The notes under the pieces are model-generated. The model was not told the origin of the DNA, made no database searches, and saw only the letters and a program-made list of their open reading frames with translations. 44,897 bases of DNA from a virus: IMG/VR virus record IMGVR_UViG_3300027748_000001, positions 1-44,897 of that record; one strand, given 5' to 3'. Each line of letters starts with the position of its first letter. The first letter of the stretch is position 1. Shown in pieces: positions 1 to 44,897 of the stretch. Both the position numbers and the translations under genes were made by a program.

Positions 1-50
1 CTCCTACTGCTCCCGCTGCTCCGACTGCTCCTACTGCTCCCGCTGCTCCG
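1..50. repeat. Terminal direct repeat, left copy
   Basis: Bases 1-50 are identical to bases 44848-44897. Both copies lie in the triplet-repeat gene and are in the same codon phase, so the overlap probably marks circular closure or a terminally redundant or permuted genome. Because it sits in tandem repeat, the true number of repeat units may be mis-assembled. Confidence 0.95.
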
Positions 51-133
51 GCTGCTCCGACTGCTCCTACTGCTCCCGCTGCTCCGACTGCTACGGCTGC
101 TCCTACTGCTCCGACTGCTCCCGCTGCTCCCGC
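1..133 (+). repeat. 9-nt tandem repeat TGC-TCC-NNN (left part)
   Basis: The unit is TGC TCC followed by CGC, GAC, TAC or GGC, with two units reading TGC TAC GGC or similar. The same array starts at 44756 on the other side of the junction. It encodes the Cys-Ser-x solenoid. Confidence 0.95.
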
Positions 134-478
134 CTAAAAAATAGTCGGCCAACTGACGCCGTAAAAGTATCAGTGCCTATCATCGAGAACATCCATCAGA
201 AAGTTTACGAAGCAGCATCAAATCCAAAAGCGTTGGATATGTCAACTTGGCATACATGCCAAAACACTCATTGCCGAGCTGGATGGGTTGTAACCTTGGC
301 AGGGATAGAAGGGAAAAAGCTTGAGGAGTTTTTCGACACGCCACTAGCAGCCATGAAGATTTATGATGCAAGCTCGTCACTGCCGAAAGTATCTCCAGTC
401 CGCTTCTTTGAAACGAACGAGATTGCGTTAGTCGACATGAAACGCATGGCCGAGATGGAGAAAGCGAGCCACAAATGA
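1..478 (+). CDS. Cys-Ser-x triplet-repeat protein, C-terminal part (gene continues from 44657 across the contig junction)
   Basis: The frame is open from base 2, reads Ser-Tyr-Cys-Ser-Arg-Cys-Ser-Asp and so on to base 133, then continues without a stop into a folded-looking domain of about 110 residues. That domain carries MSTWHTCQNTHCRAGWVV followed by LAGIEGKK, then NEIALVDMKRMAEME. With the 50-base terminal overlap merged, the frame joins exactly to the start at 44657, giving about 222 residues. A GTG at 173 could give a repeat-free 101-residue product, but the in-frame repeat argues for the longer gene. I recognise the combination of a Cys-rich triplet repeat with an IHQxVYxAAS / WHTCxxTHCRAGWVV domain from other phage and bacterial proteins; its function is unknown. 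The stop overlaps the next start (475) as ATGA. Confidence 0.85.
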   Translation, partial: SYCSRCSDCSYCSRCSGCSDCSYCSRCSDCYGCSYCSDCSRCSRLKNSRPTDAVKVSVPIIENIHQKVYEAASNPKALDMSTWHTCQNTHCRAGWVVTLAGIEGKKLEEFFDTPLAAMKIYDASSSLPKVSPVRFFETNEIALVDMKRMAEMEKASHK

Positions 479-942
479 CCGGCCACTATCAAGACGGCGA
501 GTTTATCGAAACCTACGTGGCTCCGGCGTGCGGCCACGAGATGTTTGACGAGTCCGAGATCGACGAAGAGGGACGCTGTGTGAATTGTTCAGATTTGAGC
601 GGCGGGAGTAGGCCGAAGCCGAGTAATCCTCTGATAGAGGAGAGTAGCGCCCCGCCCGCTCAACTCGGGGCTACCAACGAGTTATCTGGTAGCAACATTT
701 TGAGCGCGGTTGTGCTACCCGAGCCAACGCATTCTGAAGGGACAGCGAAAGCCCTAACTTCGGGCGAAGGCGAAGCGCTAGGAGTACCACGAGGGGGAAA
801 CCCTGAATCTAGCGGCGCTCAAAACCTTTCCGACATCCGCGATCTACAGCACAAGCTAGGAGCCGAAGCTGCCGGGCTAGTCTGGGCATTGAAACAACTG
901 GATAAGTATTTTAGGACACGAAACACCGAAGCCGAGGAATAG
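475..942 (+). CDS. Hypothetical protein with N-terminal Cys-His cluster
   Basis: 155 residues; the ATG overlaps the previous stop as ATGA, so the two are probably translationally coupled. The first 40 residues hold CGHEMFDESE and CVNCSDL, a CGH...CVNC arrangement that could bind one zinc. The middle is Ser/Pro/Gly-rich and likely disordered, and the last 35 residues look helical (LQHKLGAEAAGLVWALKQL). Function not recognised. Confidence 0.7.
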   Translation: MTGHYQDGEFIETYVAPACGHEMFDESEIDEEGRCVNCSDLSGGSRPKPSNPLIEESSAPPAQLGATNELSGSNILSAVVLPEPTHSEGTAKALTSGEGEALGVPRGGNPESSGAQNLSDIRDLQHKLGAEAAGLVWALKQLDKYFRTRNTEAEE

Positions 943-2571: not shown

Positions 2572-3084
2572 ATGAAAATATGTTTCAAATGCCATTCTAA
2601 ATTGCCATTATCCCAATTCTACAAGCATCCCAAAATGACAGACGGTCACTTAGGAAAATGTAAGATGTGCGCCCGAAAGGATACATCTGAACGCGTTGCG
2701 CTTTTGAACGCCACCGACTTAGACTGGATTCTAGCTGAGAGAGAACGGAGTCGCACCAAGGCAGCACGACAGCGAGCTAACGGGAAAGTACAAAAAAATC
2801 GGTACATTTCGATAAAACGATATCGGCTTAGAAATCCGCTAAAATGGGCGGCAATTTGCATAGCGAATAATGCAATACAGTCGGGACGATTACACAGACA
2901 AGGTTGCGAAATCTGCGGAGAGCGTGCACATAAGCACCACGACGATTACGCTAAACCGTTGGAAGTCCGATGGCTTTGTCCGAAGCACCACGGGGAACAC
3001 CATACAGCAATACGAACGAATCAAATAATCAACCATTTCAAAAATGGAAACCGGCAACTGATTTTGGACGAGGAAGGCAAATGA
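2572..3084 (+). CDS. HNH-type endonuclease with N-terminal zinc ribbon
   Basis: 170 residues. Residues 4-36 hold CFKCHSKLP...CKMCARK, a four-Cys zinc ribbon common at the front of phage HNH proteins. A basic linker follows, then the nuclease-like core CEICGERAHKHHDDY...WLCPKHHGEHH (about 118-147), whose paired CxxC and CxxH ligands and HH residues fit an HNH/beta-beta-alpha-metal fold. It is probably a free-standing mobile endonuclease. It has its own TTGACA promoter, unlike its coupled neighbours, which fits insertion as an independent unit. Confidence 0.8.
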   Translation: MKICFKCHSKLPLSQFYKHPKMTDGHLGKCKMCARKDTSERVALLNATDLDWILAERERSRTKAARQRANGKVQKNRYISIKRYRLRNPLKWAAICIANNAIQSGRLHRQGCEICGERAHKHHDDYAKPLEVRWLCPKHHGEHHTAIRTNQIINHFKNGNRQLILDEEGK

Positions 3085-34211: not shown

Positions 34212-34270
34212 CGCGGGCGAGTTGACGACTCAAACCCATTGCTGGCAAGAACACGATTGTCGTAACCGAA

Positions 34271-34300
34271 CTAAATCGGACTAAATCGGACTAAATCGAA
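34271..34300. repeat. Three 10-bp direct repeats
   Basis: CTAAATCGGA, CTAAATCGGA, CTAAATCGAA head to tail (one helical turn each) in the short gap before the scaffold gene. Spacing of one turn suggests adjacent binding of a protein on one face of the DNA; could also be slippage. Confidence 0.85.
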
Positions 34301-44419: not shown

Positions 44420-44613
44420 AAGCTATTGCCGGAACAGATTTGAAGAAAGGGCAGTTTGTGTATCGGCTGAACTTTTCTGATGAGCACGGAGAAGCAAAAG
44501 TGTTTCCCGCGCCTCTAGCGAGCGCCGCGTGGCCCTCGAATAGCATAGGCTTCACTCTTACCAAGGATTACGCGAAAGGCGAAGAAATTCCCTTGTTCCC
44601 GATCTCGCCATGA
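44416..44613 (+). CDS. Small hypothetical beta protein
   Basis: 65 residues: MKAIAGTDLKKGQFVYRLNF, then SIGFTLTKDYAKGEEIPLFP. Reads like a small beta-barrel (LKxGQFVY, DYxKGEEI). ATGA-coupled on both sides. Not recognised. Confidence 0.65.
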   Translation: MKAIAGTDLKKGQFVYRLNFSDEHGEAKVFPAPLASAAWPSNSIGFTLTKDYAKGEEIPLFPISP

Positions 44614-44660
44614 AAATTTACTTTGGATTCTTTTGGAGAAACACTGACGACAACAAATGA
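44610..44660 (+). CDS. Possible 16-residue coupling peptide
   Basis: MKIYFGFFWRNTDDNK, bounded by ATGA overlaps on both sides, linking the previous gene to the triplet-repeat gene. May be a real peptide or only a coupling device. Confidence 0.35.
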   Translation: MKIYFGFFWRNTDDNK

Positions 44661-44897
44661 AAACATGGATAGAAGATAAAAACGGCAATAAATGCTCAGT
44701 AGAATTTTGGGGCAGCAAAGAAGCCGCACAAACCGCGTTGGATAGCCTCAAAAACTGCTCCCGCTGCTCCGACTGCTACGGCTGCTCCGACTGCTCCTAC
44801 TGCTCCCGCTGCTCCGACTGCTCCTACTGCTCCCGCTGCTCCCGCTGCTCCTACTGCTCCCGCTGCTCCGACTGCTCCTACTGCTCCCGCTGCTCCG
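44657..44897 (+). CDS. Cys-Ser-x triplet-repeat protein, N-terminal part (continues at base 1)
   Basis: The ATG at 44657 overlaps the stop of the preceding 16-codon frame as ATGA. About 33 non-repetitive residues (MKTWIEDKNGNKCSVEFWGS, then a short helix ending LKN) precede the triplet repeat Cys-Ser-(Arg/Asp/Tyr/Gly), which runs to the window end. With the 50-base overlap merged, codon phase is kept into base 2. Nearly every Cys is TGC and nearly every Ser is TCC, so the repeat exists at DNA level and may change length by slippage. A Cys every third residue suggests a stacked solenoid or a metal-binding surface; this is inference. It is the last gene of the rightward chain that starts at 43189. 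Confidence 0.85.
   Translation, partial: MKTWIEDKNGNKCSVEFWGSKEAAQTALDSLKNCSRCSDCYGCSDCSYCSRCSDCSYCSRCSRCSYCSRCSDCSYCSRCS
44756..44897 (+). repeat. 9-nt tandem repeat TGC-TCC-NNN (right part)
   Basis: Continuation of the same array, starting at codon 34 of the gene at 44657. This low-complexity stretch is the likely reason the assembly opened here. Confidence 0.95.
44848..44897. repeat. Terminal direct repeat, right copy
   Basis: Exact 50-base match to bases 1-50. Position 44848 is the third base of a codon in the gene starting at 44657, and base 1 is likewise a third codon base in the frame ending at 478. Collapsing the copies gives a circle of 44,847 bp. Confidence 0.95.

Follow-up and report, generated by a model that had tools for sequence, protein, structure and literature searches.

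Our analysis of a 44,897-nucleotide viral contig (IMG/VR record IMGVR_UViG_3300027748_000001, positions 1 to 44,897; hereafter the window) reveals a gene, split between the contig ends, that encodes an array of Cys-Ser-x triplets. Within any one gene, the DNA of the Cys-Ser scaffold is homogenised, whereas the x codon stays diverse; phages that are otherwise almost the same have gained, lost, and reordered units; and pentapeptide repeats can take the place of the entire Cys array. Relative to the preliminary description of this DNA, the new elements are the single hypervariable residue per unit on a DNA-homogenised scaffold, the exchange of that scaffold for pentapeptide repeats, and the array differences between phages almost identical over 8 kb. 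The pattern suggests that the array is a fast-evolving binding surface, and we give slightly better than even chances to a modular, probably cytoplasmic phage binder that comprises an N-terminal cap, a rod-like variable array, and a constant C-terminal domain and is diversified by shuffling and selection. Judged from sequence, the gene is a member of a large, undescribed phage family, which is widespread (hosts in Bacteroidota, Proteobacteria, and others), has a middle part that outpaces its surroundings in evolution, and has a triplet unit that matches no repeat family among the libraries searched.

The window start and window end share an exact 50-base identity within a TGC-TCC-NNN array, and joining them over these bases yields one 222-residue open reading frame (44657..44897 joined to 51..478, plus strand). 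The merged protein consists of a 33-residue N-terminal cap, 25 contiguous C-x-x units that are mostly C-S-x, a linker, and a 101-residue C-terminal domain. Specifically, the cap is of type A (MKTWIEDKNGNKCSVEFWGSKEAAQTALDSLKN, 44657..44755, plus strand; the same cap in 27 aligned relatives); the 5′ part of the array, in 9-nt units TGC-TCC-NRC, runs to the contig end (44756..44897, plus strand); the 3′ part (2..133, plus strand) begins in the bases, 1–50, that equal the last 50 of the window and are counted once in the 25 units; the linker (134..172, plus strand) is variable among relatives; and the C-terminal domain, termed D1 (WHTCxxTHCRAGWVV; predicted to be helical), occupies 173..478 on the plus strand with the stop codon. 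The C-terminal domain matches PHROG 31265 (E 2.3e-31, 110.7 bits), and the cap plus array matches PHROG 15341 (E 9.7e-18), both unnamed families of phage proteins of unknown function; these results bear out the regular Cys array and C-terminal domain of the preliminary description.

The array gene overlaps both neighbours by ATGA, as read from the sequence: at 44657–44660, the TGA of a possible 16-codon reading frame (44610..44660, plus strand) overlaps the array-gene ATG, and at 475–478, the array-gene stop overlaps the start of the downstream gene (475..942, plus strand; no family found). In full-length relatives, a cap, an array, and a C-terminal domain of the same kinds lie within a single reading frame. 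The one-frame relatives and the ATGA overlaps provide independent support for joining the window ends, and the join is right in kind. The earlier claim of a single gene of 222 codons spanning the junction through a 50-base overlap is confirmed. A shorter in-register overlap, of 23 bases, also fits and lengthens the reading frame to 231 residues, a consequence of the 27-base higher-order period of the array; joining with zero overlap breaks the frame. The frame proposed to run across the junction is held by every in-register join, at 222 or 231 residues, so the array length is not fixed by the open frame alone.

For random cut pairs within the window array, the probability of an overlap of at least 50 bases is 1.6e-4, indicating that the overlap is a real repeated k-mer, beyond a mere 9-base period. 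An assembler that fails to cross a repeat leaves the same k-mer at each end of the contig, and the contig end falls inside the array gene in 19 of 80 viral relatives; together, the repeated end k-mer and the relatives broken in the gene make the window copy number a minimum. The genome is likely closed, as also proposed earlier; how many repeats it really has is unreadable from the assembly. Genomes of the Rheinheimera Barba phages were closed likewise from identical k-mers at contig ends (PMC6715854), and many records of the MT497 series of Rheinheimera phages start within ~300 bases of the pentapeptide gene with the C-terminal domain D2 (described below), several of them at the gene itself, like the window in its array. 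Such arrays interrupt many phage contigs, whose "complete" ends may conceal missing repeats.

Scans of viral contigs identified 209 relatives, and 27 relatives are present among 84,980 species genomes (Bacteroidota, Proteobacteria, and others). No Pfam family, including PF00805, matches the window protein, a terminase-based search found no close relatives of the window phage, PADLOC defence models gave no match for relatives L013, L082, and L108, and literature searches returned neither of the strings CSDCSDC and THCRAGW. Two further pattern scans for same-phage variants added little. A search with array DNA only returned many monotonous SGCSGC/SCCSCC matches, which resemble unrelated low-complexity repeats read in another frame and were set aside. 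The phage collection contains one cultured Cys-array phage, Flavobacterium phage FL-1. Its Cys-Ser-x array was annotated out of frame, as the "hypothetical protein" APZ82901.1 (L009:7609-8313, KY421186.2) with APVAPI repeats; the array gene, read correctly, has a frame break within its C-terminal domain, real or a sequencing error.

The array gene of the window sits among small plus-strand genes across the junction, with an endonuclease-like gene (PHROG 2340) at 2572–3084 on the plus strand; the minus strand carries matches to a head protein (PHROG 1328) and to terminase (PF03237, narrowly exceeding the cut-off). In Caulobacter phages, the array gene lies near genes for DNA polymerase and helicase, and YqaJ is present in 4 of 25 records (the window and 24 relatives). 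These neighbourhoods appear compatible with an early or DNA-metabolism role. Neighbour clustering of the loci revealed no constant neighbour gene; the largest cluster (51 loci) consists of antisense frames of the array gene itself. Elsewhere in the window, an intergenic short tandem repeat of ACTAAATCGG (2.9 copies) is located at 34270–34298.

Complete arrays contain 9 to 51 units (median 28); this comparison of repeat counts upholds the expectation that array length varies among genomes. Cys is encoded by TGC or TGT and occupies 2371 of 2377 register positions, a count biased upwards by the definition of arrays through Cys runs, with rare replacement by S, F, or N. The second residue is mostly Ser, for which all six codons (TCC/TCG/TCT/TCA/AGC/AGT) are used across genes; in the least homogenised arrays R, T, I, V, and aromatics have come to occupy this position, and x stays D, G, R, and N. 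Overall, x is D, G, or R, then Y, N, S, or H, and its codon is N-R-Y in 97% of units, with the second base almost only A or G. Gly x codons are GGY in 616 of 620 cases, versus 62% in the rest of the genes; CGN x codons are CGY in 477 of 477, versus 57%; four-fold x codons, too, shun a purine third base. By the genetic code, we infer, only a pyrimidine third base keeps N-R variation free of stop codons.

Silent bases are near-constant within a gene (for example, T is the last base of all 29 x codons in L019) and differ between genes of similar composition (L085 uses TGT throughout and L086 TGC throughout); being gene-specific, they argue that the scaffold is conserved as protein. Heterozygosity at the three bases of each codon is 0, 0, and 0.04 for Cys, 0.10, 0.19, and 0.13 for Ser, and 0.47, 0.47, and 0.06 for x. 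The first two x bases thus stand at 0.47/0.47 versus 0.04–0.13 at the three silent positions, and in 82 of 83 genes x is more heterozygous than the silent positions. The silent bases are alike across D, G, R, and Y units, indicating that x differences are renewed or protected during turnover. The diversity of x would reflect selection for diversity or mutation focused on x.

These data bear on three other accounts of the array. If the array were a neutral low-complexity spacer, a slippage-driven tandem repeat needed only for its length and Cys richness, x would have no role; the wide range of complete arrays, the presence of just 4–6 units in some members (L091, L095, L089), and the interconversion of D, G, R, and Y by few base changes would fit. 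Such a spacer predicts equal silent and x variation, whereas distinct unit variants number 387 protein-changing versus 22 silent in 83 genes (counts that are not of independent mutation events); moreover, genes with different silent bases draw on the same few x residues (D, G, R, Y, N, H, and S), and position-limited variation is found in pentapeptide arrays as well. We regard the neutral account as distinctly unlikely. Targeted mutation instead of selection could generate the diversity of x, and confinement of variation to bases 1 and 2 of a stop-proof N-R-Y codon is what a dedicated enzyme, such as that of a diversity-generating retroelement, might leave; the AAY codons of diversity-generating retroelement targets are a comparable stop-proof design. 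However, reverse transcriptase (PF00078) is present in 0 of 25 records (the window and 24 relatives), no template repeat is seen, and the near-restriction of the second x base to A or G is unlike A-to-N mutagenesis, so that enzymatic hypermutation is very unlikely.

The third account places the variable code in nucleotides, not in protein, as in VIPR vrRNA arrays, which are noncoding RNAs with GGY/NN pentanucleotide repeats (PMC13142463). The two systems share a phage-borne fixed scaffold with variable dinucleotides. In contrast to the noncoding GGY/NN repeats, the Cys-Ser-x array is coding, with period 9 in the reading frame and conserved caps; its scaffold bases vary between genes and are conserved only as Cys-Ser codons, with two different Ser codon families in use; its second variable base is limited to A or G; and the period differs in the pentapeptide versions. 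A guide RNA-like repeat has next to no credence with us.

Comparison of close phages reveals the turnover of units. Across 8288 bp, a single mismatch and a single 27-base gap separate L022 from L024, whose arrays contain 28 and 25 units, respectively. L055 and L073 have the same cap, no difference in the DNA that codes for the C-terminal domain, a 99% identical upstream flank, and arrays of 50 versus 30 units in different order. Both pairs are metagenome assemblies, in which repeats may be misordered, and many arrays come from short-read assemblies with possible collapsed or misordered repeats. Pentapeptide arrays of cultured phages differ likewise next to identical downstream flanks: 3162 of 3162 bases are identical between Caulobacter phages RapA and Jess A, and 3132 of 3132 among Rheinheimera phages Barba25A, 10S, and 13A. 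In Barba25A (L238) and Barba13A (L243), the pentapeptide array is split into two frames, really or by assembly error, with flanks that are those of the intact phages.

The replacement of one array type by the other is seen under two C-terminal domains. D1, the domain of the window protein, follows A(D/N)LXX-type arrays in L010, L070, L082, L105–L108, L110–L113, and others, and L082 matches PF00805; a second domain, D2, follows Cys arrays in L136 and L198 and pentapeptide arrays in Caulobacter, Rheinheimera, and Moraxella records. Membership in the pentapeptide group was defined by at least eight A(D/N)LXX pentapeptides and PF00805, a definition that leaves the window protein outside the group. 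The caps track the array type, with caps A, B, and C found only with Cys-Ser-x arrays and cap P only with pentapeptides, in a set that is no census, its loci having been fetched via C-terminal domain or array. Phage pentapeptide arrays resemble the Cys arrays in occupying the same place and in being homogenised with one to three variable codons, and most follow the Cys-array rule of constant silent bases and variation limited to few codons; they differ from Cys-Ser-x arrays, with period 3 and Cys, in having period 5, no Cys register, and another cap. Two side observations concern these genes: on one contig of Xanthomonas sp. NCPPB 1128, 37 kb separate two pentapeptide D1 genes of identical sequence (L112, L113), possibly in two related prophages, and Cys-Ser-x arrays in L133, L165, and L188 are followed by a third, short C-terminal segment (LKYAI..VxLTKEEYExKMKEI).

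The pentapeptide repeat fold is a right-handed quadrilateral beta-helix, and the pentapeptide proteins MfpA and Qnr work through DNA mimicry (PMC8145042). The interchange of Cys and pentapeptide arrays, along with DNA-metabolism genes near the array genes of several phages, could accordingly point to a gyrase-binding DNA mimic in which the Cys array would substitute for the pentapeptide rod. The mean net charge per unit is, however, −0.15, with 19 of 86 arrays net positive, and a constant target does not call for hypervariable arrays; a gyrase mimic seems quite improbable. The interchange bears equally on a metal-storage or redox protein of metallothionein-like type, in which repeated CxxC would bind metal or buffer thiols and x would tune solubility. 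Cys spacing in the arrays is apparently compatible with metallothionein-like metal proteins: CxxC recurs throughout, and Cys persists in units that have I, V, T, R, or K in place of Ser. The same C-terminal domains occur with Cys-free pentapeptide arrays, so metal is not the shared function, and the diversity of x is left unexplained; metal storage or redox buffering as the function is thus unlikely. The near-absolute retention of Cys nevertheless appears to ask for Cys chemistry or a strict core.

Structure prediction is confident for the C-terminal domain. In an AlphaFold model of relative L013, this domain is helical (pLDDT block means 92–97 over residues 151–223), and most of the Cys-Ser-x array has pLDDT 34–47; in a second, single-sequence run, the array was again without confident structure. 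A PDB fold search with the model gave no significant match (best Z 2.1, VIA-align), and BFVD gave one short match, A0A1P8VWG3 (50% identity over 68 columns). The sequence search against solved structures returned only weak matches, for example the beetle thermal hysteresis (antifreeze) protein 1EZG (E 0.009), a Cys-rich beta-helix whose likeness to the array lies in regular Cys spacing and is probably compositional. 1EZG is secreted and disulfide-bonded. The N-terminal sequence of the window protein shows no hydrophobic export signal, which makes disulfides less likely here.

The period-3 repeat with Ser also resembles the His-Xaa-Ser protein HxsA4 (NF038313), raising the idea of a modified peptide precursor, His-Xaa-Ser-like or lanthionine, in which enzymes join Ser and Cys side chains. 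The NCBIfam match to HxsA4 is weak and far under the cut-off (E 0.015, 16.1 bits versus 55), and the array phages lack consistent maturation enzymes: of 25 records, 1 has a radical SAM protein and 0 have a LanC-like protein (PF05147). The C-terminal domain, moreover, is large and conserved, and a modified precursor is extremely unlikely.

For the modular binder that we favour, the array would form a rigid rod or solenoid on which evenly spaced x side chains make up a recognition surface. Duplication and deletion of units, with selection for x diversity, would re-tailor this surface, presumably in an arms race against some molecule of a host or competitor; the C-terminal domain would serve as a constant effector or dimerisation part. 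The Cys requirement might reflect a metal-thiolate ladder of repeated CxxC or a thiol core, which we prefer to disulfides because no export signal is evident. TAL effectors have near-identical DNA repeats with variable recognition codons and change by unit shuffling. Their likeness to the Cys-Ser-x array is in the variation pattern alone: TAL effector repeats are helical and of 34 residues, whereas the array has 3-residue Cys units, for which DNA binding is not indicated. Rather unlikely as a whole is a further-reaching proposal, namely that phages possess a protein-level recognition code in which each unit supplies a single variable contact with a target that is linear or repetitive, shuffling proceeds without reverse transcriptase, and two rod scaffolds are interchangeable, one of them a previously unseen triplet solenoid with a metal-thiolate or thiol core. 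Cultured Caulobacter and Rheinheimera phages carry the pentapeptide form, making array function and turnover directly testable.
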